From: Lysobacterales bacterium
Lineage (GTDB): Bacteria > Pseudomonadota > Gammaproteobacteria > Xanthomonadales > Rhodanobacteraceae
Assembly (NCBI GenBank): GCA_015655335.1
Contig: JAATFF010000060.1
Location: forward strand, 1-60,285
Direction: 5' to 3'
DNA length: 60,285 nucleotides
Both the position numbers and the translations under genes were made by a program. The notes beneath the pieces were generated by a model, which searched no databases, had not been told where the DNA came from, and saw nothing but the letters and a program-made list of their open reading frames with translations. Positions 8,004 to 21,360 of the stretch are shown piece by piece (position 1 is the first letter of the stretch; each line of letters opens with the position of its first letter).

Positions 8004-8753
8004 TCAGAGCTTGTACGCGCGATGGATCGCCACGATGCCGTTGCTGAGATTGCGCACTTCAACGCGTCCGAAACCGGCGCGTTCCATCATGCCTTTGAGC
8101 GTTTCCTGATCCGGATGTTTGCGGATCGATTCGGCAAGGTACTGGTAGCTATCTGCGTCGCCGGCAAACAATTTGCCCAGCTTCGGTAGTACCTGGAAAG
8201 AATGGAAATCGTAGAGCTTGCTGAAAAGCTCGCTCTGCACTTTCGAAAACTCCAGTACCAAGGCTCGACCGCCGGGCTTGAGCACGCGGCAGATGTCGGC
8301 TAGGGCTTTGTCCTTGTCCGTGACATTGCGCAGGCCGAACGCCATGGTGACCGCGTCGAAGCTGCTGTCGGAAAAAGGAAGTACCTCGGCGTTCAATTGC
8401 GTCCAACGCAGGCCCGAGACCAGGCCGCGGTCGGTCAAGCGGTCGCGGCCCACGTTGAGCATGGCGGCGTTGATATCGCCCACGACCACGTCGCCTTCTT
8501 CGCCCACCACTGGCTTGATCAACGCGGCGATATCGCCGGTGCCACCGGCTAGGTCCAGTACGCGATCGCCACGGCGAATGCCGCTCACGCCGACGAAATG
8601 ACGCTTCCAGAGGCGATGGATGCCGAGCGACATCAGATCGTTCATCAGGTCGTAGTTGCGGGCGACCGAGGTGAAAACCTGGCCGACCAGTTTTTGCTTT
8701 TCCCCGACCGGAACGTCGCGGAAACCGAAGTGGGTAGTGGGCTGCTCGCTCAT
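8004..8753 (-). CDS. ubiE: Ubiquinone/menaquinone biosynthesis C-methyltransferase UbiE
   Basis: A 249-residue class I SAM methyltransferase. The UbiE/COQ5 signature is clear: N-terminal [39 protein letters not shown] motif [13 protein letters not shown], then [13 protein letters not shown] and the C-terminal [16 protein letters not shown]. It performs the C-methylation step in ubiquinone (and menaquinone) synthesis. ATG 8753 ([11 protein letters not shown]) is preferred over the in-frame ATG 8804 because the latter would run through a perfect 19-bp palindrome and adds 17 residues not seen in the family. Confidence 0.95.
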
Positions 8754-8780
8754 GCCGGCATGGTACAGGATGGCGGGTGC

Positions 8781-8799
8781 GGATAAGGCGGCCTTATCC
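8781..8799. promoter_or_regulatory. Perfect 19-bp palindrome between ubiE and the tsd-like operon
   Basis: GGATAAGGC at 8781-8789, one central base, then GCCTTATCC at 8791-8799. The arms are perfectly complementary. It lies 28 bp upstream of the chosen ubiE start and 89 bp upstream of the dsrE-like start, between the divergent genes. Symmetry and placement suggest a dimeric repressor or activator site. No family can be assigned by eye. Confidence 0.5.
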
Positions 8800-8805
8800 G
8801 TCATA

Positions 8806-8874
8806 TAGGCAACGCGAAGTAGCCTGATGGCCGCGGGCGGCGTAGCCTTCTCGCCGACGCAACCGCGTTGCCTA
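8806..8874. repeat. Perfect 11-bp inverted repeat flanking the dsrE-like leader
   Basis: TAGGCAACGCG at 8806-8816 and CGCGTTGCCTA at 8864-8874 are exact reverse complements separated by 47 nt. The right copy ends 13 nt before the ATG at 8888, next to the ribosome-binding region (GAGATGGAAAC). The pair could be two half-sites for looping or oligomeric binding, or a long-range stem enclosing the leader of the operon mRNA. Confidence 0.5.
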
Positions 8875-8887
8875 GCGAGATGGAAAC

Positions 8888-9427
8888 ATGAAACGTTCGA
8901 GCCTGCTGCTGTCCTGCGTTGTTGCCCTGCTTGGCTGTGCCACGGTGGCGGCTCAAAACGCCCCCGCGGTGATTACCGCTGCCGGCGCCTATCATCCGCT
9001 GCCCAAGGCCGCCTACCAGCCCGATCCCGCCGCTACCTATAAAGTCGTGTTTTCGTTGACCAAGGGCAGCGATAAACCGGATCAGATCAACCCGGGTCTT
9101 GAGCGCGTCGCGCGCACGGTCAATCTGTATGCCGCATCCGGTGTCGCGCTCGATCACCTTAAATTTGTCGCCGTAGCATCCGGTGCCGCGACCGACTTGG
9201 TGCTGGACGACGAGCACTACAAGGCGAAGTTCGGTACGGCCAATCCCAACCTTGCCGCCATCGCGCAGTTGCGCAAGGCCGGGGTGGATGTGGCCGTCTG
9301 CGGTCAGGCCATGGCCGAGCATCACTATCCCGCCGAATGGGCATCCAAGGACGTGACGCTTAGCCTCTCCGCGTTGACCACGATCACCGTACTGGAGCAG
9401 AAGGGCTACGCCCTGCTGCCGCTGTAA
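8888..9427 (+). CDS. Exported DsrE-family protein, first gene of the tsd-like operon
   Basis: A 179-residue exported protein. The signal peptide (to about VAAQNA, residue 23) contains LLGC, so either Sec or lipoprotein processing is possible. The mature part is a DsrE/DsrF-like alpha/beta fold: [30 protein letters not shown], the [10 protein letters not shown] strand, [18 protein letters not shown], and C-terminal [19 protein letters not shown]138 in AVCGQ sits where DsrE-type proteins carry their persulfide-binding cysteine. The next gene starts 13 bp later after CGGAG, so they are co-transcribed. A role in periplasmic sulfane-sulfur handling is inferred from the cytochromes downstream. Confidence 0.85.
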
Positions 9428-9440
9428 CAACGGAGCCGAC

Positions 9441-10391
9441 ATGTCGCCACATTTGAACAGTTGCTGGCAACGTATGCTGCTGGCCGGGTGTCTTGCCGTT
9501 GTCTGCGGCGTCGCCAGTGCCTCGCAAGATAACTACCTGCCACCGTGGAATCCGCCGCCGAGCGGTGGCGTGTCTTTCGCGGTGCCACCGTTCGATGCCA
9601 TTGCCGATCTGCACGGCGATATCGTCGATCCGCAGCTCACGGTGTTCTTCGCGGGTAATCAGTTCATGGTCGTGCATGATCTGGTCGAGGCGTTCAAGCA
9701 ACGCTATCCACAATACCCGCGCATCTACGTGGAAACGTTGCCGCCGGGCATTCTCGCCAAGCAAATCGAAACCGGCTCGCTGGTCATGGGCAACCTGCGC
9801 ATTGCGTTGAAGCCGGATATCTTCACCAACAGCAAAAGCTCGATCTCCGATCTGCAGAAGCAACACGGCTGGTTTGCCGACACCGTTGACTACGCGCGCA
9901 ACCCGCTGGCGATCATGGTCGCGAAAGGCAATCCCAAGCACGTCGAAGGTCTGAAAGATCTAGGCCGCGCGGATGTGCGTGTGAGCATGCCCAACCCCGA
10001 GTGGGAAGGCATCGCCAAACAAATCGAGGCCAGCTATCGCAAGGCCGGCGGTGATGCGTTGGATCGCACCATCATGGACAGCAAGGTGAAGGACGGCAGC
10101 ACTTATCTCACGCGCATCCATCACCGTGAATCGCCGCTGCGTGTGCTGCAGGGTGAATCGGATGCTGCACCGGTGTGGTCTACGGAAGTATATTTTCAGC
10201 AGCAAATCCTGCATCGTCCCGTGGAAACCATCGCGATTCCTGCAGATCAGAATGTGACGTCCACCTATACCGCTGCGCGTATGAAAGATGCGCCGCACGC
10301 GCAAGCTGCAAAAGATTTTCTTGCCTTCATGACATCCGCCGAGGCGCAGGGCATCTATCGCAAATACGGCTTCCAGCCGCCGCAGCCATGA
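9441..10391 (+). CDS. ModA/PstS-like periplasmic substrate-binding protein without its transporter
   Basis: A 316-residue protein with a Sec signal (to about residue 28, VASAS). The bilobal binding-protein fold of the bacterial solute-binding type II class is recognisable: LTVFFAGNQFMVVHDLVEAF, YARNPLAIMVAKGNPKHVEGLKDL, VRVSMPNPEWEGIAKQI and the C-terminal AAKDFLAFMTSAEAQGIYRKYGF. Molybdate- and oxyanion-binding proteins look like this. No ABC permease or ATPase gene is near. It lies inside a cytochrome operon and overlaps the next gene by 4 bp (ATGA). It may present an oxyanion to the redox proteins or act as a sensor; that is inference. Confidence 0.82.
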   Translation: MSPHLNSCWQRMLLAGCLAVVCGVASASQDNYLPPWNPPPSGGVSFAVPPFDAIADLHGDIVDPQLTVFFAGNQFMVVHDLVEAFKQRYPQYPRIYVETLPPGILAKQIETGSLVMGNLRIALKPDIFTNSKSSISDLQKQHGWFADTVDYARNPLAIMVAKGNPKHVEGLKDLGRADVRVSMPNPEWEGIAKQIEASYRKAGGDALDRTIMDSKVKDGSTYLTRIHHRESPLRVLQGESDAAPVWSTEVYFQQQILHRPVETIAIPADQNVTSTYTAARMKDAPHAQAAKDFLAFMTSAEAQGIYRKYGFQPPQP

Positions 10392-11050
10392 ACATGCTGC
10401 GTGCCGCGCTGATGATGTTGTGCGTGCTTGGTGCGTCCAGCGCACTGGCCGATACACTCAGCGGTGCAGTGCTGGCGCAGCAAGGCAATGGTCACGGCGT
10501 GGCGCCTTGCATGGCCTGCCACGGTGCCGATGGCGGCGGTCAGGCCGCAGCGGGCTTCCCGCGTTTGGCCGGTTTGTCGCAGGCCTATCTGCGCAAACAG
10601 CTGGATGATTTCGCCAACGGTTCACGCGTCAACGCGACCATGCAGCCGGTCGCGAGTGGATTGAGCGACACCGAGCGCGACGCCGTCGCCGAGTACTACA
10701 GCAAGCTGCCAACGCCGCCGGTGACGCCATCTCCCGCACCGAGCGGTGATATAGCGCAGGTCGGGCAGCGACTCGCGACACGCGGGCGCTGGTCGGATGC
10801 GCTGCCCGCTTGCGAACAATGCCACGGGCCCGGTGGCGTCGGCGTCGGCGATCACTTTCCACCACTTAGCGGGCAATCAGCCGTCTATCTATCCAACCAG
10901 TTGCATGCATGGCAGCAAGGTTCGCGCCGTAACGATCCTTTGCAACTCATGCAAAGCGTAAGCGGCAAATTGAGTGATGACGATGTCGCCGCGATCGGCG
11001 CGTGGTATGCCGCGCAAATGAACGTATCGCCGAAGGAGCAGCAGCCATGA
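10388..11050 (+). CDS. Dihaem cytochrome c4-family protein (TsdB-like electron acceptor)
   Basis: A 220-residue periplasmic protein. Signal peptide cleavage is near ALA-DT (residue 21). Two tandem class I cytochrome c domains follow, with haem sites CMACH (41-45) and CEQCH (142-146) and likely distal methionines M85 (TMQPV) and M189 (LMQSV). The FPRLAGLSQAYLRKQL and FPPLSGQSAVYLSNQL repeats are typical of the c4 family. TsdB, the partner of thiosulfate dehydrogenase TsdA, belongs to this family and is encoded next to tsdA, as here. ATG 10388 overlaps the previous stop by 4 bp, and its own stop overlaps the next ATG by 4 bp. Confidence 0.88.
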   Translation: MNMLRAALMMLCVLGASSALADTLSGAVLAQQGNGHGVAPCMACHGADGGGQAAAGFPRLAGLSQAYLRKQLDDFANGSRVNATMQPVASGLSDTERDAVAEYYSKLPTPPVTPSPAPSGDIAQVGQRLATRGRWSDALPACEQCHGPGGVGVGDHFPPLSGQSAVYLSNQLHAWQQGSRRNDPLQLMQSVSGKLSDDDVAAIGAWYAAQMNVSPKEQQP

Positions 11051-11976
11051 AGAGGATGCGCCCTATCTTGATCGGTGCGGTGCTATTGCTGACAGCATGC
11101 GAACGCTCTGCGCCGCAGACGGCCGCTTCCTCGGCCCATGTTCCCGCGCCGGCGACATCCTCGACGAAAGTTACCGATCACTTTGTGCCGCCGCCGGAGT
11201 CCGCTATTCCTGGCGACGATTTCGGCAAGCAAGTTGCGTTGGGGCGACAGATCTTTATCGATCCGGGTCATTACGCGAAAGCCTACGTCGGCAATCAACT
11301 CAGTTGCGAAAACTGTCACCTCGATGCAGGGCGACTCGCAAACTCCGCGCCATTGTGGGGCGCGTATCCGATGTATCCCGCTTATCGAAGCAAGAACCAT
11401 CACGTCAACACATTCGCAGAGCGTTTGCAGGGTTGCTTCAACTACAGCATGAATGGCAAAGCGCCACCGCTCGGTGATCCCGTGCTCGTGGCGCTGGAAA
11501 GTTATGCGTACTGGATGTCGAAAGGCGAGCCGATCGGTACATCGCTACCCGGCCGCAGTTATCCCAAAGTGACCAAGCCCGCACTCGCGCCCGACTATGC
11601 GCGCGGCACGGCTGTGTTCAAACGCGACTGCGCGCTTTGCCACGGCGGCGACGGTCAAGGCCAGCAGGCAGCGGGACGCACGGTATTTCCACCGCTGTGG
11701 GGGCCCCAGTCGTTCAACTGGGGCGCGGGCATGGAGCAGGTGAACAACGCCGCCGGCTTCATCAAAGCCAACATGCCGTTGGGTCGCGGCAATACGTTGA
11801 CCGATCAGGATGCATGGGATGTCGCGTATTACATGGACGCCCACGAACGCCCACAGGACCCGCGCTTCAACGGCTCGATTCAGGCCACGCGTGCGGCGTA
11901 TCACGACACGCCCGATTCGCTTTACGGCGTAGCGGTTAACGGCCAAACTTTAGGGCAGGGCACTGCGAAGCCTTAA
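11047..11976 (+). CDS. tsdA: TsdA-like thiosulfate dehydrogenase/tetrathionate reductase, dihaem lipoprotein
   Basis: A 309-residue protein with lipobox LLLTAC (C18). Domain 1 has haem site CENCH (87-91) followed by the TsdA signature around NSAPLWGAYPMYPAYR and GC at C130. That cysteine is at the position of the unusual His/Cys haem ligand that defines the active site of TsdA. Domain 2 has CALCH (195-199) and a distal methionine candidate M243 preceded by Asn, the N-M arrangement recalled for Campylobacter TsdA, rather than the Lys-Met of Allochromatium. The enzyme interconverts thiosulfate and tetrathionate. ATG 11047 has AAGGAG at 11033-11038 and a 4-bp overlap with the cytochrome gene. 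Confidence 0.85.
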   Translation: MKRMRPILIGAVLLLTACERSAPQTAASSAHVPAPATSSTKVTDHFVPPPESAIPGDDFGKQVALGRQIFIDPGHYAKAYVGNQLSCENCHLDAGRLANSAPLWGAYPMYPAYRSKNHHVNTFAERLQGCFNYSMNGKAPPLGDPVLVALESYAYWMSKGEPIGTSLPGRSYPKVTKPALAPDYARGTAVFKRDCALCHGGDGQGQQAAGRTVFPPLWGPQSFNWGAGMEQVNNAAGFIKANMPLGRGNTLTDQDAWDVAYYMDAHERPQDPRFNGSIQATRAAYHDTPDSLYGVAVNGQTLGQGTAKP

Positions 11977-11984
11977 GTATGAAA

Positions 11985-13001
11985 TCACGGCTCGTCGGCA
12001 ACTCGCAACAGCAACTTGCCGCGATTGCTACCCTCGAATAGTCTGTTTAATACCAAGGGCGCGTTCTCGAGTCCGTCTTCGATTGTCTCCTCCGCTTTGA
12101 TTTTTCCGGTGGTGACCCAGCCGACCAGATCGTGCGTTGCCTTTTGAGTGTCGTGATAATCAAAGGCCAGGAAGCCGCGTACCGTCAGGCGTTTGACGAT
12201 GATGATGCTGTAATCATCGCTGGGGCGTGTGCCGCTGGTGTAGTTGGCGATCTGCCCGCACAGCGCCACGCGGCCGCCGTTGACCATGCGCGACAACACC
12301 GCGCGCATCACCGGTCCACCGACGTTTTCGAAATTGACGTGTACGCCATCCGGCGTGGCGTCGACTAGCGCCTGCTTCCAGTTATCGGCTTTGTAGTCGA
12401 CGGCGGCGTCGAAGCCCAGTTTGTCGACAAGATGTCTGCACTTGTCCTGGCCACCCGCGATGCCGACGACGTGCGCGCCGCGCAGTTTGCCGATCTGCCC
12501 TGCGATTGAACCGACCGAGCCTGCTGCCGCAGAAACGACCAACGTTTCGCCTGGCTGCACTGGCGCAATCTCGGTAAGACCGTAGTACGCCGTGATGCCG
12601 CTGAATCCGCATGCGCCGAGCAAAGTCGGCAGCGGCACCGACGGATGGGGCGGCAGCTTGACGTAGTCCTTACGTCGGCGATCGTCGATGACCGCGTAGT
12701 CTTGCCAGCCCATCAAACCTTGCACGAGATCACCTTCTGCAAAGTGTGCGGATTTCGATGCGACCACACGACCCATGCCAAGGGCACGCATCACTTCACC
12801 TATTGCGACTGGCGGCATGTATTGCGGGATGTCGCTCATCCACACGCGGTTGGTAGGATCCATCGAGATGTAGAGCACGCGCACGAGAAATTCACCGTCC
12901 TTGAGTTCCGGAACGGGGTGCTCTTGCAGATCGAAGTCGTCGCGCTTGACCAATCCTTCGGGGCGAGTCTTCAGGCGCAGCTGGCGATTGATAAGGGACA
13001 T
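11985..13001 (-). CDS. Zinc-independent MDR NADP-dependent oxidoreductase (CurA/prostaglandin-reductase type)
   Basis: A 338-residue medium-chain reductase of the leukotriene B4 dehydrogenase/CurA branch. Evidence is the N-terminal block YISMDPTNRVWM, the cofactor motif VVSAAAGSVGSIAGQIGKLRGA with the NADP-binding segment GIAGGQDKCRHLVDKLGFDAAVDYK, and NFENVGGPVMRAVL. Zinc-ligand residues of alcohol dehydrogenases are absent. These enzymes reduce the double bond of alpha,beta-unsaturated carbonyls such as 4-hydroxy- or 4-oxo-alkenals. It is the last gene of the catabolic operon that starts at 17624, lying 27 bp after the SDR stop. Its 3' end converges with tsdA, 8 bp apart. Confidence 0.9.
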   Translation of the reverse strand: MSLINRQLRLKTRPEGLVKRDDFDLQEHPVPELKDGEFLVRVLYISMDPTNRVWMSDIPQYMPPVAIGEVMRALGMGRVVASKSAHFAEGDLVQGLMGWQDYAVIDDRRRKDYVKLPPHPSVPLPTLLGACGFSGITAYYGLTEIAPVQPGETLVVSAAAGSVGSIAGQIGKLRGAHVVGIAGGQDKCRHLVDKLGFDAAVDYKADNWKQALVDATPDGVHVNFENVGGPVMRAVLSRMVNGGRVALCGQIANYTSGTRPSDDYSIIIVKRLTVRGFLAFDYHDTQKATHDLVGWVTTGKIKAEETIEDGLENAPLVLNRLFEGSNRGKLLLRVADEP

Positions 13002-13028
13002 AGCGAATAACCTATGAGGAGAGGGCGT

Positions 13029-13817
13029 TCAGACGGCGCAAGCGCCGCCATCGATCACGAGCTCGGCGGCGGTAACGTAGCGGCTTTCGTCGGAGGCAAG
13101 GTATAGCACGGCGTAGGCGACGTCATCGGGTTCGCCGAGGCGGCGCATGGGAATACCGCGCGTCAGCTTGCGCGTAGCTTCTTCTTCACCGAGCGATGCG
13201 AAGAACGGTGCCACGATGCCGGTACGGATAAATGCCGGATGGATCGAGTTGCAACGCACATCGATTTTCTGTCGTGCACAATCCACGGCCACCGACTTGG
13301 TCAGCATCGCCACGGCGGCCTTTGAGGTGTTGTACGCGGTGTAATCCGGATCGGCCTTGAAAGCGGCGAGCGAGGAGATGTTTACGATAGAGGCGGGCTG
13401 CTGTTGGCGGAGATACGGCAGTGAGTGCTTGCAGCCAAGCATGATGCTTTCCACGTTCACGCCCATCACGCGGCGCCATTCCTTCAATTCAATCTGCTCA
13501 ACGCTGCCGAGTGAACCGATACCGGCATTGTTCACCAGCACGGACACGCCGCCCATGGCTTTGGCGGCTTCTTCCAGCAAGCGTTGCCAGGTCGCTTCGT
13601 CACGTACATCTTGCGCGGCCGACCATGCTATCTGCGTACCGAGGTCGCGATTGATATCCGCCGCAACGGCACTGACGGCCGCTTCGTCAATATCGGTGAT
13701 GAATACCTTGGCACCATGCCGCGCAAGCATACGCGCGATAGCAGCGCCAAGACCGCCCGCTGCGCCGGTGACGAAAGCGCATTTGCCCGCGACGCGCTGC
13801 GCTGAAAGATGTGTCAT
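13029..13817 (-). CDS. SDR-family oxidoreductase 1
   Basis: A 262-residue classical short-chain dehydrogenase. The cofactor motif is TGAAGGLGAAIA, with ITDID after beta-2 (NAD preference suggested by the acidic residue). NNAG is present, and the catalytic Ser (NISSLAAF), Tyr and Lys (YNTSK) are all there. The C-terminal RLGEPDDVAYAVLYLASDESRYVTAAELVIDGG matches hydroxyacyl/hydroxysteroid-type SDRs. ATG 13817 has an AAGGA site 8 nt upstream and starts 17 bp after the stop of the adjacent SDR, so it is operonic. The substrate is probably a hydroxyacyl-CoA or related alcohol, given the acyl-CoA dehydrogenase in the operon. Confidence 0.9.
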   Translation of the reverse strand: MTHLSAQRVAGKCAFVTGAAGGLGAAIARMLARHGAKVFITDIDEAAVSAVAADINRDLGTQIAWSAAQDVRDEATWQRLLEEAAKAMGGVSVLVNNAGIGSLGSVEQIELKEWRRVMGVNVESIMLGCKHSLPYLRQQQPASIVNISSLAAFKADPDYTAYNTSKAAVAMLTKSVAVDCARQKIDVRCNSIHPAFIRTGIVAPFFASLGEEEATRKLTRGIPMRRLGEPDDVAYAVLYLASDESRYVTAAELVIDGGACAV

Positions 13818-13833
13818 GGAAATGTCCTTGAGT

Positions 13834-14604
13834 TCAAACGCTGAGGTAGCCGCCATCGACATTCAGCACCGCACCGGTGGTGTACGACGCTGCATCGGAA
13901 GCGAGATAAAGCGCGGCGCCAGCCATTTCCGATGGTTGCGCCACGCGACGCATCGGTACATGCGCCAATGCGTTTTTGAGAATCGCCGGTGTGTTGACCA
14001 ACACCGAGGCGAACTTGGTATCGGTCAGGCCGGGCAACAGTGCATTGCAGCGCACGCCGGATTCGGCGCATTCCACTGCGAACGCCTTGGTCATCGAAAT
14101 CACAGCAGCTTTGGTGATCGAATAGATGCCTTGTTGCATGCCTGGCACCACACCGTTGACGGATGCGACGTTAACGATGGAACCACCGCCATTCTTGGCC
14201 ATCAACCGTGCGCCATGCGTGGACATATAGAAGTAACCGCGAATGTTGACGTCCACGGTTTTCTGGAAGATCGACGGCTCTGTATCCAGAATGTGACCGA
14301 AGAAAGGATTGGTCGCCGCGTTGTTGACGAGGATGTCGAGCCGGCCGTGCTTCTGCGTGACCTGCGCGAACAACGCTTCAATCTGCTCAAGCTCGCCGAT
14401 GTGGCAAGCGATGGCCTCGGCGGAGCCACCGGTGGCAGTGATCTCGTCGACCACGGTCTGACAATCGGCCTGTTTGCGGCTCGACACAATGGTATGCGCG
14501 CCGTGCGCAGCGAGCAGTTTGGCGATCTCGGCGCCGATGCCGCGGCTGGCGCCTGTCACGATGGCGATCTTGCCGGAGAGGTCGAAACTTGGCGTAGTGC
14601 TCAT
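13834..14604 (-). CDS. SDR-family oxidoreductase 2
   Basis: A 256-residue classical SDR: TGASRGIGAEIA cofactor motif, VSSRK after beta-2 (basic, NADP-type), NNAATNPFFGH, VNVASVNGV, and catalytic YSITK. The C-terminal RRVAQPSEMAGAALYLASDAASYTTGAVLNVDGG is family-typical. ATG 14604 is the first start that leaves a normal N-terminus; an earlier in-frame start would add 37 atypical residues. It resembles DHRS4/SDR types found beside acyl-CoA dehydrogenase and phosphotransferase genes. It differs from SDR 1 in predicted cofactor, so the two may work in sequence. Confidence 0.9.
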   Translation of the reverse strand: MSTTPSFDLSGKIAIVTGASRGIGAEIAKLLAAHGAHTIVSSRKQADCQTVVDEITATGGSAEAIACHIGELEQIEALFAQVTQKHGRLDILVNNAATNPFFGHILDTEPSIFQKTVDVNIRGYFYMSTHGARLMAKNGGGSIVNVASVNGVVPGMQQGIYSITKAAVISMTKAFAVECAESGVRCNALLPGLTDTKFASVLVNTPAILKNALAHVPMRRVAQPSEMAGAALYLASDAASYTTGAVLNVDGGYLSV

Positions 14605-14635
14605 GATCGATAAATCCAGTGAAAGTAAAAAGCAG

Positions 14636-15331
14636 TCAGCGAAGGGTGACCAGGTGCTGATCGGTCGATCGCGCCAGATGTGGCCACGCGTTGTACGTAA
14701 CGAGCGACACGCCACGCTTGCCCAAGCGCAGCTGCGTCGTGCTTGTATTCACCAGTGGCCAGCTGAGTTTGAACGTCTGCGCAGTGGGCGCATCGATCAG
14801 ACTATTTACGAGCACGGCGATAGGACCACCCGAGGTGAAGGCCCAGATCGTTTTCGCATCCTGCGCGGCGAGCGTTTGCAAAGCTTGCCGCGTGCGGTCG
14901 CGGAAGTCTGTCCAGGTGAGTGAATAATCGGCATCGTGTGTGCCGTCGGTCCAGCGCACGATCGCGGCTTCGAACATCTGCTGGAAGGCGCGATGCGAAT
15001 CCGTCGCCTGCTTCAGTTCGGCGCGTAGTGCGTCCGGTTCTGTCAGATCCGGGCGCAGGCGAGCTAGCAGTTCGTGGTGGTCGACCTCATCCAGTCCTTC
15101 CAGCTTAAGCAGGGAGCGGTCGAGGCCGGCGGCACTCAGCGCCAGTTCCGCTGTCCGCACGTGACGCTGCCGCGGACCTATGGCAACGACATCCGGTGTC
15201 GGACCGCAATCGGCCAACCACATGCCGAGCCGTCGTGATTGTTCCTCGCCCAGCGGCGACAGGCGATCGTAATCGGCAGCACGAAAGCTGGCTTGACCAT
15301 GACGAATCAGCAGCAGGCTGCGCACGCTCAC
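14636..15331 (-). CDS. Histidine phosphatase (phosphoglycerate-mutase-like) family protein
   Basis: A 231-residue protein of the branch 1 histidine phosphatase superfamily. The N-terminal LLLIRHGQASF carries the phospho-accepting His. LSPLGEEQSRRLG and GPRQRHVRTAEL give the conserved arginine region, and AFTSGGPIAVLV is the C-terminal histidine-region equivalent. The second His of the usual SHGG-type motif appears replaced here (SGG), which is worth noting. Its start overlaps the stop of the upstream kinase gene by 4 bp (ATGA), so it belongs to the operon. Its substrate is unknown; dephosphorylating an intermediate made by the adjacent kinase is an attractive inference. Confidence 0.85.
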   Translation of the reverse strand: MSVRSLLLIRHGQASFRAADYDRLSPLGEEQSRRLGMWLADCGPTPDVVAIGPRQRHVRTAELALSAAGLDRSLLKLEGLDEVDHHELLARLRPDLTEPDALRAELKQATDSHRAFQQMFEAAIVRWTDGTHDADYSLTWTDFRDRTRQALQTLAAQDAKTIWAFTSGGPIAVLVNSLIDAPTAQTFKLSWPLVNTSTTQLRLGKRGVSLVTYNAWPHLARSTDQHLVTLR

Positions 15332-16398
15332 AGCACCGAGCGAGCGATGATGCGGCGACAGCGTTCACCCATGTAGTGCGCAGCCTGACCGAAGCCGGCA
15401 AATTGTGGCTGAGTGGTTTGACCTAGCGCGAAGCGACGATAGATCTGCTGGATGATCACCATCAGGCGGAACACGCCGAATACTTCGTAGAAATCGAAGT
15501 TGTCCACGCTACGGCCGGCGCGGCAACCGTAGTAGTCGATCACTTCGCGGCGCGTCAGCATGCCGGGAGCATTCGACGGTTGGCGACGGAACGATTGGAA
15601 CGTTGCATCGTCATCCGCCTGCACCCAATAAGCTAGCGAGCCGCCTAGATCCATCAAGGGATCGCCGAGTGTCGCCATCTCCCAATCCAGCACGCCAATA
15701 ATGCGCAGTGGTTGTTCGGGATCGAGCACGACGTTGTCGAAGCGGTAATCGTTGTGGATGACACAGGTGGCGTTGTCGTGCATGGGTTGTCTTTCGCTCA
15801 GCCAAGCAACCACGTCTTCGCAAGGATCGGTGCCCTCGACAGCGGCCTGGCGCCAGCGATCGCTCCAGCCAGAGACCTGTCGCGCGATGTAGCCTTCGCC
15901 CTTGCCGATGTGTTGTATGTCTGCGCTGGATGTATCGACCTGATGCAGTTCCACCAGGCGATCGACGAAGCTATGGCAGAGCGCGCGAACGCTATCGCTG
16001 TCCAGACCGAGATCTGCCGGTAGATCTCGGCGCAAAATGATGCCGCGTAATCTCTCCATCACGTAGAAGTGCTGGCCGATGACGGTCTCGTCTTCGCATG
16101 CGGCGAGAATCGTCGGTACAAAAGGGTAATGCGGCTTCAACGCAGTCATGACCTGCGCTTCGCGCAGCATGTCGTGCGCCGATTTTGCTTTGGCGCCACG
16201 GGGCGGTCGGCGCAAGACCAATTCGCGATTCGGATAGGCCAGCAGATAGGTGAGATTGGAAGCGCCGCCCGGAAACTGCGTGACTGTCGAGGCGCCTTGC
16301 AACCCTTCGATGTGCTGTTTGAGATAGGCATCCACGCGGACGACGTCGAACGCATCCTCGTCGCGCACGGCGCGTGCCTGATCCAAAGTACCGCTCAT
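15328..16398 (-). CDS. APH-family phosphotransferase (ACAD10/11- or LvaA-type kinase)
   Basis: A 356-residue aminoglycoside-phosphotransferase/choline-kinase fold. It has the nucleotide lobe [25 protein letters not shown], the catalytic loop [14 protein letters not shown] (D and N), and the metal motif [18 protein letters not shown] (D). This subgroup is the one fused to an acyl-CoA dehydrogenase in eukaryotic ACAD10/11 and encoded next to one in bacterial pathways such as levulinate catabolism. There the kinase phosphorylates a 4-hydroxyacyl-CoA. It overlaps both the upstream dehydrogenase gene and the downstream phosphatase gene by 4 bp. No antibiotic-modifying role is suggested. Confidence 0.9.
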
Positions 16399-17624
16399 CG
16401 GAAAGACTCCATGCTGTCTTGTGCTTTGGATTCCAGCTTGGCGATGACGCCGCGATGCACTTCGTCCGGACCATCCGCCAGACGCAATATGCGTGCGTAG
16501 GCGAATAATTGCGTAAGCGGGAAATCGTCGGAGAGGCCGGCGCCACCATGAATCTGTATAGCGGTGTCGGCGGCGTGTTGCGCGACGGCGGGAACCACCA
16601 CTTTGATCTGCGAGATCAAGCTCAACGCGGCCTTGGGGCCGTGCGTGTCGAGCGTCCACGCAGTCTTCAACGTCAGCAGGCGCGCCTGTTCGATGGCCAT
16701 GCGCAAGTTCGCCACGATATCGGGATTACCGCCCAGTTCTGCCAACGGCTTGCCGAATGCCACACGCGAGCGAGCACGTTTGCACAGCAACGACAATGCA
16801 CGTTCCGCCGCACCGATCGCGCGCATGCAATGGTGCACGCGTCCCGGCCCCAGCCTTCCTTGCGCGATCTCGAAGCCGCGACCCGGTCCGAGAATGATGT
16901 TGGCGATCGGCACGCGCACATCGGTAAAACTCAACTCGCCGTGTCCGGAAGGTTCGTCGTAGGTATGAAACACCGGCAGCATGCGTTCGATCTTCACGCC
17001 CGGAGCGTCAAGCGGACAGATCACCATCGCATGCCGTCGATACGGTTCGGCTTCCGGATGGCTGAGGCCCATGAAAATGACGAAGCGGCAATGCGGATGT
17101 CCGGCGCCGGTGGTCCACCATTTGCGGCCGTTGAGCACGACGTGATCGCCGTCGATGCGCGCAGTGGCCTGCATGTTGGTGGCGTCGGACGACGCCACGT
17201 CCGGTTCGGTCATGCCGAAGCCTGAGCGAATCTCGCCCGCCAGCAACGGCTTCAGCCAGCGCTCGCGCTGCTCATCGCTGCCGTAGCGATGCAGCACTTC
17301 CATGTTGCCGGTGTCCGGGGCGCTGCAGTTGAACACTTCGGGCGCGATGAACGAGTGGCCCATGATCTCTGCCAGCGGCGCGTAGTCCAGGTTGCTCAAG
17401 CCGGCGCCGTGTTCGGCGTCGGGCAAGAACAGATTCCATAGTCCGGCGGCGCGCGCCTTGTGCTTGAGCGTTTCCATGATCGCCGGCTGCCGCCATGCGC
17501 GATGATCGGCGCTTCCCGTCAGTTCGGCGGCGTAGACGGGCTCTGCCGGCACTACCTCATCGCGCATGAAGCGCGTAAGGCGTTCGATCAGGGCCTGGGT
17601 GCGTTCGGAAGGGGCGAAATCCAT
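16395..17624 (-). CDS. Acyl-CoA dehydrogenase family protein (ACAD11/LvaC-like)
   Basis: A 409-residue flavoprotein. It has the N-terminal helical domain, the [17 protein letters not shown] flavin/substrate-binding segment, [11 protein letters not shown], the arginine-rich helical block [29 protein letters not shown], and C-terminal [34 protein letters not shown]. The DGPDEVH ending is characteristic of the ACAD10/11 branch, rather than a standard GT(S)EI-type base. It is first in the operon, directly downstream of the LysR-type operator. With the kinase it may convert phosphorylated hydroxyacyl-CoA to enoyl-CoA. Confidence 0.92.
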
Positions 17625-17674
17625 AGGCTTCTCTCCGGAATCCGTTCAGCCTACGCCCTTCGGAAGGGATTAAT

Positions 17675-17708
17675 AAAATGAATATGTCTTATAGGTACAT
17701 ATCATTTT
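17675..17708. promoter_or_regulatory. Inverted-repeat operator between the LysR gene and the catabolic operon
   Basis: AAAATGAATATGT (17675-17687) faces ACATATCATTTT (17697-17708). The arms match except for one extra A, giving an AT-rich dyad centred near 17692. It lies in the 154-bp divergent region between the acyl-CoA dehydrogenase start (17624) and the LysR start (17779). A T-N11-A-like dyad at this location is the expected binding site of the LysR protein itself. Confidence 0.65.
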
Positions 17709-17778
17709 CATGCATGGGTTGACGTATCCTTGGGCGGACTCTGAAACCCTATCGCCGAGCCACCGAGAACACCGCGTC

Positions 17779-18693
17779 ATGGATCGCACCGAGAGCCGTA
17801 TCGACCTTAATTTGTTTCGCGTATTGGATGCGATCTATACCTATGGCGGCGTCAGCGCGGCGGCGCGCGTGCTGCACCTTACCCAGCCGGCTGTCACACA
17901 TGCGTTGAAACGGTTGCGCGATCACCTGGGCGATCCGCTGTTCGTGCGCCAAGGCAACCGACTGCTGCCCACGGAGAAAGTGCGCACCATGATGCCTTCC
18001 GTGCAGGCGCATCTGGAGGGATTGCATGCCAGCGCGCATGCACAGCCACGATTCGATCCGGCGCGATTGGAGCTGGAATTCACGATCGGCTTTCGCGACA
18101 TCCTGGAATCGATCGCGCTGCCGGCTTTATTCAAGCAAATCGAGCGGGAGGCACCGCATGTGCGCGTGGTAAGCCACCGTATTGCCGCCGTTGATGTCGA
18201 GCGCGAATTGCGGGCGGGAACCTTGAACCTCGTAGTCGATCGTCCTTTACGTGCCGGTGCGCAGATTGTGCGTCAGCATCTGGCGGACGAAACCTTGGTA
18301 GTGGTGATGCGTGTCGGCCATCCGCTGTCATCGCAGTTGAAGCGCAGCGACTATCTCGCCGCCCAACACGTGACGGTTTCGCCGCTTGGCGAGGCCAGCG
18401 CACTGGATATGCTGCTCAACCAGAGTGGTACCTTTCGTGAGGTTCGCCTGGTCTGTCAGCATTATTTTTCGGCGTGTCAAATCGCGTCGAGCACGGACTT
18501 GTTGATGACGGTGCCGCGCTCGTATGCGATCCATTTGTCCACGTTGTTGCCGATCGCGGTGTTGCCGTTGCCGATCAAGCTCAAAGCGATCCCGATACTT
18601 GCGTATTGGCATGCATCGACAAATGACGACCCCGCTCACGCATGGTTTCGGCAGTGCGTGGTCGATGCTATTGGCAGCGGCATTGCCGCGTGA
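17779..18693 (+). CDS. LysR-family transcriptional regulator, divergent from the acyl-CoA dehydrogenase operon
   Basis: A 304-residue LysR protein. The N-terminal winged HTH is DLNLFRVLDAIYTYGGVSAAARVLHLTQPAVTHALKRLRDHLGDPLFVR, and the C-terminal type II binding-protein effector domain starts near residue 95. ATG 17779 gives MDRTESRIDLNLF, where the HTH begins at the usual distance; the in-frame ATG at 17710 lies inside the inverted repeat. It probably regulates the divergent operon through the site at 17675-17708 in response to a pathway intermediate. The effector cannot be deduced. Confidence 0.92.
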   Translation: MDRTESRIDLNLFRVLDAIYTYGGVSAAARVLHLTQPAVTHALKRLRDHLGDPLFVRQGNRLLPTEKVRTMMPSVQAHLEGLHASAHAQPRFDPARLELEFTIGFRDILESIALPALFKQIEREAPHVRVVSHRIAAVDVERELRAGTLNLVVDRPLRAGAQIVRQHLADETLVVVMRVGHPLSSQLKRSDYLAAQHVTVSPLGEASALDMLLNQSGTFREVRLVCQHYFSACQIASSTDLLMTVPRSYAIHLSTLLPIAVLPLPIKLKAIPILAYWHASTNDDPAHAWFRQCVVDAIGSGIAA

Positions 18694-18729
18694 TGGGGCA
18701 GGCCGGCGTGTTTGTCGGCCGAAGAAAAG

Positions 18730-21360
18730 CTAGTCTTTCTCTTGGTCCACCGGCGCGTGTTCATGGTGCTCGGCTATCACGTGCCGCTCATGCAGCTCTT
18801 CGCTGGTATTGAGCACTTCGGCAGGTGCCTCCGGTGCGGTGTCCAGCTCGGGCGTACGCGCTGATTCTTTCTCGCTGTCGCCACCGGTGATCTTGAGAAT
18901 CGAATGGCGCATTTCGCGGGCGAGAATCACGCGAGCATCGCGCACCATATCTTCCAGTGCGGCGTCGTAGTCGAGCTTGCCGTTGTCGTCGGTCCAAACC
19001 ACACGACCTTCGCGCAACTTCTGGATAAAGCCACGGAACAGTGCTTTGTCGAAGAACTCTGGCGCAGACGGTTCGCTCAATAGGCTGAGGCGCTGCGCGG
19101 TAAGCGTGCAGACGTTTTCCAGCTCGGCTGAGGTGATCGTGTGCGGTCCGTTCTTCACCAAAGCGGCGATGGCGATGTAATAGCGCTCGAACGCCTGGAT
19201 CAGGCTGCGCCCGATGACCTTGAGCTGATAAGCGGCGTCGTCCTGGCCGGGGCTGCGTTCCAGCACGCGGCCTTCGCCGGTGGATTCCAGCAAGCCGCGA
19301 CGCACGAAGAAATCGATAGTCGCTTGCAGTTGCGCGCCGAAACCTTCGTTATCCCACGGCAGGAACAGCTCGCCTTGAATAAAGGGATAGATGATGCGGC
19401 CCAAGCGAAGAATCGAGGCGCGTGACATGCGGCGGTTGTTGAGGAAGCAACAGGCAACCCACGCGGCAGCAGCGGTGATGTGCAGCACATTGTTACGGAA
19501 GTAACTCAGCAACACCGCCTGTTCGCTTTCCACGGTGAGTACGTCGCCAAGAGGGTGACGCACGCGCGTGATCCAACCCATTTGTTCGCCGTAGCCGACG
19601 ATCGCAGCCGGGTCCATGGGCGTAAGTGTCATGCGATCGGAATAGGGCAGCTCTTCGAGCAATGCCTTCATCAACTCCAGCTGCGCTAGCAGATCGTTTT
19701 CCGCCATCGCGTGCTTGGGCGTTGCCAGCAACGCGAGTGCAAGCAGGTTGATGGGATTGACGTCCGCAGCGCGATTGATATTGATCTGGATTTTTTCCGC
19801 CAGCTGGTCGACGACGGTGTTCAGCCATTCTGGCTTGGCATTCGGGTCGATCGTGGCTTCGCGCCAGTTGCTGGCCGCAGCGTCGAGCAGAGGATTGAGC
19901 TCGATCGGCTCGCCGAAGTTGAGCGCGACATGGCCATAGCGCTGGCGCAATACACCCAGGCCACGCAGCAGGCCGATCAGCGATTCTTTTTCTTTCGGTT
20001 TGCCGGAAAGCTCGCCGATATAGCTTTTGCCTTCCATCAACTTTTCGTAGCCGATGTAAACCGGCTGGAACAACACGGGGCGGCGCGGCGCGCGCAGATA
20101 CGCACGCACGGTCATCGCCAACATGCCGGCGCGGGGCGCGAGCAGACGGCCGGTGCGCGAGCGTCCGCCTTCGATGAAGTATTCCATCGGCACGCCGCGA
20201 TCGATCAACTGCGCGACGTATTCGTTGAACACCACCGGATACAGCGCATTGCCTTTGAAACTGCGGCGCAGGAAGAATGCGCCGCCGCGACGAAGGATGG
20301 GGCCGATCAGCGGCAGGTTGAGGTTCACGCCCGCCGCGATATGCGGCACGACCACGCCCGATACATGCAGCTGATAGGACATCAGCAGATAGTCGGCGTG
20401 GCTGCGGTGGCTGGGTGCGTAAACCACTTCGTAGCCGGGCGCGGCAGCGCGGGCTTTGTCGAAGTGGTGCATGGTGATGCCGTCGTATAGCTTGTTCCAG
20501 AAGTTGCGCAGCAGGAACGAGGCTGATCGCACCACCGGATGCGAGTAGTCGGCGGCGATCTCCATCGCCATTTTCTGCGCGCGCTCCCAGGATTTGCCGT
20601 AGCTGATGTTTTCCTTGGTGGCCGTGGTGGCGATGGCGGCGCGCACGGGTTCGGCGTTCAGCACCGCATCGACAACGGTACGGCGGTGCGAAAGGTCCGG
20701 CCCGATCACTGCCGCGCGAATACGACGGAAGTGGGTGCGCAGCACGCGCGCCATCTTGCGTGCGAAGCGTTCCGGACGAATGTCGCCTTCTTCGTTGAAG
20801 ACCGCACGTAGCGATACCGGTGCGGAGAAGTGCACCACGGTGTCGCGGCCGTTGAGCAGCAACGCGAGCATGCGCCGGAAGCGGCCGACCATCACCCAGT
20901 TTTCCGAGAACAGTACGCTGAACCAGCCGCTTTCGCGCGTGGGTGCACGGCCGACGTAGATCGAGACTGGCACGATCTGGATATCGCGGTCGGGAAATCC
21001 TTCCAGTGAGCGCACGAGTTGGCCGAGCGGTTCGTTCGGCGAACGCTGACGATTGCGTCCGAATAACCAGCCGTCGCGACGTGCCAGCGCAAAGACCGAA
21101 CGCCGCCGGCGCGTGTTGGGCAGCGGCTGCATCGGACTTGGTAGGCCGGCCTCGCGGCAGGCGCGGTCCAGGATCAGCGCATCGGAAAAACCGTCGCGCT
21201 CGATCACGTAGCAAACGGGCGCATCGCCCTGCAGCAAGCCGGCCGGTTCGGCCGGGTCGCGGCGGATGCGTACCCAGGGTTCAAGCAGGTGGCCTGCAAG
21301 GTTGAACCACCAGGGCGCGCGGCTGCGGTAGCTGGATTCCGCGGTCGTCATAGTCGGCAT
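18730..21360 (-). CDS. plsB: Glycerol-3-phosphate 1-O-acyltransferase PlsB
   Basis: An 876-residue membrane-associated acyltransferase, slightly longer than E. coli PlsB (about 807). The four GPAT motifs are present: HX4D in APSHRSHADYLL (H318, D323), GAFFLRRSFKGN, the YFIEGGRSRTGRLL block and VFQPVYIGYEKL. It transfers acyl groups from acyl-ACP/acyl-CoA to the sn-1 position of glycerol-3-phosphate, the first step of phospholipid synthesis. The extra length is mostly an acidic C-terminal tail after DSEKESARTPELD. The lipoprotein gene upstream ends 29 bp before this start, so they are probably co-transcribed. ATG 21351 is an alternative start. Confidence 0.96.
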   Translation of the reverse strand: MPTMTTAESSYRSRAPWWFNLAGHLLEPWVRIRRDPAEPAGLLQGDAPVCYVIERDGFSDALILDRACREAGLPSPMQPLPNTRRRRSVFALARRDGWLFGRNRQRSPNEPLGQLVRSLEGFPDRDIQIVPVSIYVGRAPTRESGWFSVLFSENWVMVGRFRRMLALLLNGRDTVVHFSAPVSLRAVFNEEGDIRPERFARKMARVLRTHFRRIRAAVIGPDLSHRRTVVDAVLNAEPVRAAIATTATKENISYGKSWERAQKMAMEIAADYSHPVVRSASFLLRNFWNKLYDGITMHHFDKARAAAPGYEVVYAPSHRSHADYLLMSYQLHVSGVVVPHIAAGVNLNLPLIGPILRRGGAFFLRRSFKGNALYPVVFNEYVAQLIDRGVPMEYFIEGGRSRTGRLLAPRAGMLAMTVRAYLRAPRRPVLFQPVYIGYEKLMEGKSYIGELSGKPKEKESLIGLLRGLGVLRQRYGHVALNFGEPIELNPLLDAAASNWREATIDPNAKPEWLNTVVDQLAEKIQININRAADVNPINLLALALLATPKHAMAENDLLAQLELMKALLEELPYSDRMTLTPMDPAAIVGYGEQMGWITRVRHPLGDVLTVESEQAVLLSYFRNNVLHITAAAAWVACCFLNNRRMSRASILRLGRIIYPFIQGELFLPWDNEGFGAQLQATIDFFVRRGLLESTGEGRVLERSPGQDDAAYQLKVIGRSLIQAFERYYIAIAALVKNGPHTITSAELENVCTLTAQRLSLLSEPSAPEFFDKALFRGFIQKLREGRVVWTDDNGKLDYDAALEDMVRDARVILAREMRHSILKITGGDSEKESARTPELDTAPEAPAEVLNTSEELHERHVIAEHHEHAPVDQEKD

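Follow-up and report, generated by a model that had tools for sequence, protein, structure and literature searches.

Does a kinase gene lying beside an acyl-CoA dehydrogenase (ACAD) gene in a bacterial operon belong with mammalian ACAD10 and ACAD11 and with the levulinate (lva) operons, and which protein accompanies the kinase where the lva partner LvaB is absent? The question is raised by a 60,285-nucleotide stretch from a Lysobacterales bacterium, here called the window, which is contig C47 of a 3.5-Mb genome that is 86% complete. Open reading frame (ORF) and family searches placed six minus-strand genes at 11985-17624, encoding from the 5' end an ACAD, a kinase of the aminoglycoside phosphotransferase (APH) fold, a histidine-phosphatase-fold protein here named HisP, two short-chain dehydrogenases/reductases (SDR1 and SDR2) and a CurA-like reductase, with a LysR gene divergent to the operon. 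An earlier interpretation made from the letters alone (the sequence-only reading) had claimed this set of six, and both the ORFs and the families bore it out, with the operon recurring in relatives. On balance, we favour the view that the operon brings 4-oxo and 4-hydroxy fatty acids into beta-oxidation by a kinase/phosphate-lyase route, with HisP as its partner.

Kinase and ACAD

The ACAD was far nearer to ACAD11 than to ordinary ACADs, scoring 544 bits against PDB 4hr3 and 438 against ACAD11 (8v3u), compared with 150 for the next ACAD. Its residues R257, H265 and R268, lying on one helix, together with D384, are the equivalents of ACAD11 R626, H634, R637 and D753; three basic residues and a catalytic Asp are described for ACAD10/11 and LvaC (PMC12440821; here and below, papers identified by a PMC number are cited from excerpts of their text). 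All four residues were present in 155 of 155 aligned sequences, chosen at >250 bits and including the window and PDB rows, and in none of five other ACADs of the genome, drawn from its seven further ACAD matches.

The kinase matched PF01636 with 165.9 bits and, among PDB entries, 9o56 (258 bits), 3dxp (177) and the ACAD11 kinase (168). It retains the HxD....N (H215, D217, N222) and LDWE motifs, as expected of an ACAD10/11-LvaA-type kinase in the broad sense. Identity to PDB ACAD11 was 33% for the kinase and 52% for the ACAD; the reported values for the lva proteins are 29% between LvaA and the ACAD10/11 kinases, and 62% and 56% between LvaC and ACAD10 and ACAD11, respectively (PMC11342911). 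Judged by sequence, the window pair belongs, broadly taken, to the ACAD10/11-LvaAC kind.

Both steps, phosphorylation and phosphate elimination, are carried out by ACAD10, and kinase and ACAD relatives from B. pseudomallei are each able to replace the matching ACAD10 domain (PMC11342911). The mechanism proposed there passes through a transient 2,4-dienoyl-CoA and requires a leaving group at C4, so the conserved ACAD pocket argues for C4 chemistry here. From these characterised relatives, we infer that the window kinase and lyase also act at C4.

HisP, a Phosphatase Fold without the Second Catalytic Histidine

The third protein had been taken for a phosphatase; this holds for its fold, and both the loss of a catalytic residue and the recurrent place beside the kinase had been missed. 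His_Phos_1 was matched by all 31 members of our alignment A1, in which R10-H11-G12, R56 and E82, as required of an active branch 1 histidine phosphatase, are invariant. The second catalytic His, likewise expected of such an enzyme, is replaced by Ser (S167 in the window) in 96 of 96 sequences, taken one per locus at >60 bits to the window protein, the latter included. By alignment, His occupies this position in four PDB relatives and in two other histidine phosphatases of the same genome, a third match, on contig C156, having been left out of the alignment. The AlphaFold (AF2) model showed a confident fold (predicted local distance difference test, pLDDT, 93.7), and Foldseek placed phosphoserine phosphatases and a riboflavin-pathway phosphatase nearest to it. 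H218 was considered as a substitute for the lost His and rejected, its HL motif being shared by two of the four PDB relatives that have the second His.

LvaB is a 12-kDa partner of LvaA. No such partner had been apparent in the sequence-only reading, and indeed the gaps between the operon genes, none longer than 31 bases, are too short to hold an ORF of LvaB size, the rest of the genome not having been searched for LvaB; it is HisP that adjoins the kinase instead. HisP is a recurrent partner in this place where LvaB is absent. Across one order (293 genomes), HisP (E up to 1e-20) was found in 138 genomes, an ACAD of the group (E up to 1e-110) in 166 and both in 135, with an odds ratio of 180 not corrected for descent; three of the 138 HisP genomes lack the group ACAD. 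HisP also stands beside ACADs and kinases of the ACAD11 side, in a different gene order, at each of the six loci examined from one ACAD subclade.

Conservation of the Operon

A kinase scan of the genome collection yielded 423 relatives; the analysis covers the best 80 loci among them, a choice that over-represents near relatives; the partner counts that follow use those of the 80 with enough flank. An ACAD lay within 2.5 kb of the kinase at 66 of 66 loci, a divergent LysR gene upstream at 65 of 66, HisP within 2.5 kb at 69 of 76 and SDR1 downstream at 62 of 72 (one of the exceptions, L077, is a filter miss in which SDR1 is split into two ORFs). At >60% identity, SDR2 was present at 30/67 loci and the CurA-like gene at 29/63. 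All seven genes, LysR included, occurred together at 31 of the 80 loci, and in these complete operons SDR1 was the best conserved protein (median identity 89%) and HisP the least (63%). The association exceeds chance, and its conserved core is LysR-ACAD-kinase-HisP-SDR1. A close SDR2 and CurA-like protein are typical mainly of the Rhodanobacteraceae/Lysobacteraceae form, other loci often carrying a remote SDR instead.

Judged by the operon, the nearest relatives of the window are Dyella and other Rhodanobacteraceae. Within the family the distribution is patchy, with a window-type kinase (at least 54% identity) in 16 of 78 genomes, the present one included; the kinase itself ranges over gamma-, beta- and alphaproteobacteria and occurs in two acidobacterial assemblies as well. 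On L005, a contig labelled Candidatus Eremiobacteraeota, the Dyella-like operon is complete (76-96% identity), and the contig is probably a mis-binned one from Rhodanobacteraceae.

The genes of the route are not always neighbours. In one further genus, the kinase was found in 146 of 149 genomes and the ACAD in 145, two genomes having neither (Fisher p 0.0016), and SDR1 follows the kinase in 10 of 10 neighbourhoods examined. One genome of this genus (L170) carries an extra copy with HisP, kinase, ACAD and LysR together; at the second ACAD matches of the genus (L209-L212) a kinase was not found nearby. At nine loci (L137-L142, L144, L214, L215), a group ACAD and a LysR gene stand with no kinase nearby, in genomes of an order whose kinase, together with SDR1, can sit elsewhere. 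Two more loci (L146, L147) hold a CurA-like gene, two SDRs and a group ACAD together, again with no kinase nearby.

Two Clades and a Second Set in the Same Genome

In a kinase tree of 44 rows, 29 window-type and 14 ACAD11-type rows fell on opposite sides with support 100/100; labels follow the best BLAST query, PDB 9o56 is assigned to neither of the two, and ACAD11 and 9o56 are flagged by the program as long branches. An earlier tree of 60 rows with outgroups gave two outgroup kinases of the same genome a branch length of 10 and required three changes for the window-type label; these two kinases, five rows linked to DUF6285 and some near duplicates were dropped before the 44-row tree. The ACAD tree (quick method, 50 rows) showed the same split, with a Shimodaira-Hasegawa-like approximate likelihood ratio test (SH-aLRT) value of 100 on both sides and PDB 4hr3 on the window side. 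The assignment to the ACAD10/11 type made by the sequence-only reading thus stands in the broad sense, on motifs, 4-phosphoacyl-CoA residues and conserved operon, and fails in the narrow sense, a fully supported branch separating the window pair from ACAD11. A phylogeny outside the ACAD10/11 group, named there as a refutation, was found in this narrow sense only.

A pair closer to ACAD11 lies in the same genome, on contig C15 (L093, 15552-18838). Its kinase, KIN15, scored 509 bits against 3dxp and 266 against ACAD11 (177 and 168 for the window kinase), and its dehydrogenase, ACAD15, scored 490 bits against ACAD11. By sequence comparison, therefore, the window pair is ACAD10/11-like broadly, yet within its own genome another pair is the closer counterpart. 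The two sets are of the same kind, and in both the kinase gene overlaps that of a phosphatase-family protein; on C15, however, this is a ComB-like 2-phosphosulfolactate phosphatase (PF04029), and no His_Phos_1 match was found on that contig. The C15 sequences are of the ACAD11 side, fadB and a thiolase gene follow the kinase, MaoC and other ACAD genes are near, and an IclR-type regulator adjoins the ACAD. The substrates of the two sets probably differ. The same trio of kinase, ACAD and ComB-like genes was found in one other genome of the family (L247). A general partnership between ComB and these kinases was rejected, since ComB occurs in just 2 of the 78 genomes of the family, each time beside the kinase.

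DUF6285 (PF19802) was considered as an LvaB and likewise rejected: it is absent from the genome under study and from six others, and in one order accompanies far more distant kinases and ACADs. At loci L095-L124 it stands either by itself or within a single long ORF shared with an APH-like kinase, in many cases next to distant ACADs. These loci are a separate kinase-ACAD association.

Operon Layout, Accessory Enzymes and Promoter Region

The features are collected in Table 1. Consecutive genes of the operon are spaced by -4, -4, +31, -29 and +27 bases, the -29 overlap between SDR1 and SDR2 becoming a +16 gap if SDR2 begins at its own Met 16. The kinase gene overlaps the ACAD gene, and the HisP gene the kinase gene, by 4 bases each, in agreement with the earlier description of kinase and ACAD as separate overlapping genes.

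Table 1. Predicted features of the operon and its promoter region, in window coordinates.
Feature	Position	Strand	Basis
ACAD10/11-LvaC-type acyl-CoA dehydrogenase, predicted to eliminate phosphate from 4-phosphoacyl-CoA	16395..17624	-	Pfam, PDB matches, diagnostic residues R257, H265, R268, D384, tree
APH-fold kinase, predicted 4-hydroxyacyl-CoA kinase	15328..16398	-	Pfam, PDB matches, H215-x-D217....N222 and LDWE motifs, tree
HisP, GTG start	14636..15331	-	Pfam, alignments, AF2 model, Foldseek; RHG (H11), R56 and E82 present, S167 at second catalytic His
SDR1, predicted 4-oxo/4-hydroxyacyl-CoA oxidoreductase	13834..14604	-	NCBIfam PRK07035, 447 bits (cut-off 373)
SDR2, start possibly Met 16	13029..13862	-	NCBIfam PRK07069, 454 bits (cut-off 339)
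CurA/PTGR-like C=C reductase	11985..13001	-	Family matches, under CurA cut-off
LysR-type regulator, divergent; true start perhaps 17779 (next in-frame Met)	17710..18693	+	Family matches
Candidate LysR operator/promoter box, consensus CATAAAGCATATTCATTT	17676..17693	-	Inside imperfect palindrome 17673-17711

The reductase had been called a CurA-like enone reductase. The family likeness is there, and CurA proper is not: the NCBI equivalog model gave 339.5 bits against a cut-off of 440, so by this measure the enzyme is best termed CurA-like only. SDR1 is a candidate for the LvaD step, from 4-oxo to 4-hydroxy.

Upstream of the ACAD gene, the window matches the box CATAAAGCATATTCATTT at 15 of 18 positions. 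Loci L005-L040 match it at 13-18 positions, compared with 8-12 in 297 of 300 background windows, and loci outside this set score 9-14, near background; the consensus was derived from part of L005-L040, and the conservation holds for near relatives only. The operon is probably under LysR control. A common box for the split genes of the further genus was rejected, with scores near background.

PlsB flanks this region at one end, and cytochrome c and solute-binding genes flank it at the other, the genes typed around the operon (8004-21360) being PlsB, cytochrome c, solute-binding, DsrE-like and UbiE. The plus-strand genes at 8888-11976 encode a DsrE-like protein, a solute-binding protein and two cytochromes c, of which one contains a SoxA/TsdA-type domain, and are possibly a small sulfur-oxidation cluster.

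Comparison with Known Systems

The window shares with mammalian ACAD10/ACAD11 the kinase fold with its catalytic motifs and the four ACAD residues and, with ACAD10, a degenerate phosphatase-fold partner. It differs in that the mammalian proteins are kinase-ACAD fusions, whereas the genes here are separate, of a sister clade and joined by SDR and CurA-like genes, and in that the ACAD10 partner is a HAD domain and not a histidine-phosphatase fold. With the lva operon, compared by description, it shares a kinase, an ACAD and an SDR in one operon and the 4-oxo to 4-hydroxy to 4-phospho logic (PMC6692424, PMC11342911); on the other hand, it has no gene of LvaB size between its genes, and its regulator is LysR where lva has the sigma-54 LvaR.

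Also comparable is the levulinate cluster of Pseudomonas citronellolis LA18T (Habe 2019, LC458675), with kinase, histidine phosphatase, ACAD and SDR and without LvaB; it has a ligase, a transporter and LvaR beside it, and neither a second SDR nor a CurA-like gene is listed for it. Habe et al. 2019 (PMC6692424) noted the absence of LvaB, so the gene association of histidine phosphatase, kinase, ACAD and SDR is already known in print. In the open-access literature, most subscription papers falling outside the search, nothing was found on the HisP subfamily, its missing His, its wider partnership or the six-gene operon; a search of the histidine-phosphatase literature returned no paper, and the excerpts of an Acinetobacter baylyi proteomics study (PMC6971185) hold nothing linking to the operon.

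Proposed Pathway and Alternatives

In the proposed route, the CurA-like enzyme would, where present, saturate conjugated 4-oxo (4-oxo-2-enoyl) substrates at C2=C3, and SDR1 and/or SDR2 would interconvert 4-oxo- and 4-hydroxyacyl-CoA. The SDRs may jointly set a stereochemistry acceptable to the kinase; two of them could invert the alcohol, since the ACAD10 kinase prefers the R form (PMC11342911). The kinase would convert 4-hydroxyacyl-CoA into 4-phosphoacyl-CoA, from which the ACAD would expel phosphate with no added electron acceptor, as reported for ACAD10/11, giving a 2-enoyl-CoA for ordinary beta-oxidation encoded elsewhere. HisP, in which the residues of the phosphate pocket are retained, would sense or slowly remove 4-phosphoacyl-CoA and limit the kinase, like the degenerate HAD of ACAD10. 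By analogy with characterised relatives this core chemistry is likely; the roles of the SDRs, the CurA-like enzyme and HisP, and the natural substrate, are put forward more tentatively.

Several observations weigh against this reading. Both window proteins fall in a sister clade outside the ACAD11 clade, so they are not its orthologues in the narrow sense, and genes for a CoA ligase, a transporter or further steps of beta-oxidation are all missing from the operon. None of the ten kinase neighbourhoods examined in the genus of 149 genomes holds such an ACAD, and several group ACADs stand without a kinase in their neighbourhood. HisP is absent from 7 of the 76 loci with room, hence not required everywhere, and from 31 of the 166 ACAD genomes, in a co-occurrence uncorrected for descent. 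Moreover, phosphatase activity can survive the loss of the second His.

The last point bears on whether HisP is an ordinary active phosphatase, hydrolysing dead-end 4-phospho-acids (metabolite repair) or dephosphorylating 4-phosphovaleryl-CoA. Its intact fold and retained RHG, second Arg and Glu speak for this, and removal of phosphate from 4-phosphovaleryl-CoA was suggested by Habe et al. for the P. citronellolis enzyme (PMC6692424); the invariant Ser where paralogues and PDB relatives have His speaks against it, leaving activity of this kind a possibility of minor weight. The role as a sensor or brake is favoured over that of a weak repair phosphatase because the HAD domain of ACAD10, which is likewise without a catalytic residue (an Asp), shows negligible activity as a phosphatase and holds the kinase back (PMC11342911). 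By that analogy, HisP is most likely a dedicated partner that would sense or slowly remove 4-phosphoacyl-CoA, so limiting the kinase. The broader proposal, that bacterial 4-hydroxyacyl-CoA kinases may be restrained by a dedicated, catalytically disabled histidine-phosphatase-fold protein reading the 4-phosphoacyl-CoA level, is a tentative one.

The substrate could also be another. Since the window pair lies outside the ACAD11 clade, substrate position or chain length may differ, and the pair might act on some other gamma-hydroxylated CoA ester (e.g. from a terpenoid, sterol side chain or aromatic-derived acid) and not on straight-chain fatty acids; the ACAD11-side pair already present on C15 near fadB, thiolase, MaoC and other ACADs fits this, whereas the spread of the kinase from proteobacteria to acidobacterial assemblies favours a common substrate, and we regard the idea as unlikely. 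Somewhat less likely still is a variant levulinate (4-oxopentanoate) operon with lva chemistry, HisP in the place of LvaB, and ligase and transporter elsewhere. The P. citronellolis locus offers a precedent for it (PMC6692424), yet typing of the genes at 8004-21360, to which the search was confined, turned up no LvaE-type ligase, LvaFG-type transporter or sigma-54 LvaR, and a LysR regulator stands in place of LvaR. To the same low degree we credit detoxification of lipid-peroxidation products (4-hydroxy-2-alkenals and 4-oxo-2-alkenals), an idea raised by the sequence-only reading because a CurA-like gene is present: the CurA-like enzyme and SDRs would reduce the enal or enone, and the kinase and ACAD dispose of the 4-hydroxy acid. 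The CurA-like and prostaglandin-reductase-like family matches agree with it, as does the handling by ACAD10/11 of 4-hydroxy acids, some from lipid peroxidation (PMC11342911). Against it, a CurA-like gene (>60% identity) is found at fewer than half of the loci with room, the six genes include no aldehyde dehydrogenase, and the patchy operon better fits an accessory catabolic function; a literature search on 4-hydroxynonenal and CurA found nothing relevant.

Significance

Not until papers of 2024 and 2025 was the breakdown of 4-hydroxy acids attributed to ACAD10/11, and a conserved bacterial operon with a separable phosphatase-fold partner devoid of a catalytic residue makes the question of control by the ACAD10 HAD domain testable in simple strains. 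If the proposal on HisP is true, this protein would occupy the LvaB slot and be a bacterial analogue, of unrelated fold, of the disabled HAD; if the ComB-like gene on C15 has the same role, three unrelated phosphatase folds would have been recruited beside one kinase family. The operon may be of use in the bioconversion of 4-hydroxy acids, gamma-lactones and levulinate. More generally, it suggests that the lva/ACAD10-11 system has a widespread sister branch, equipped with SDR, CurA-like and LysR genes of its own.

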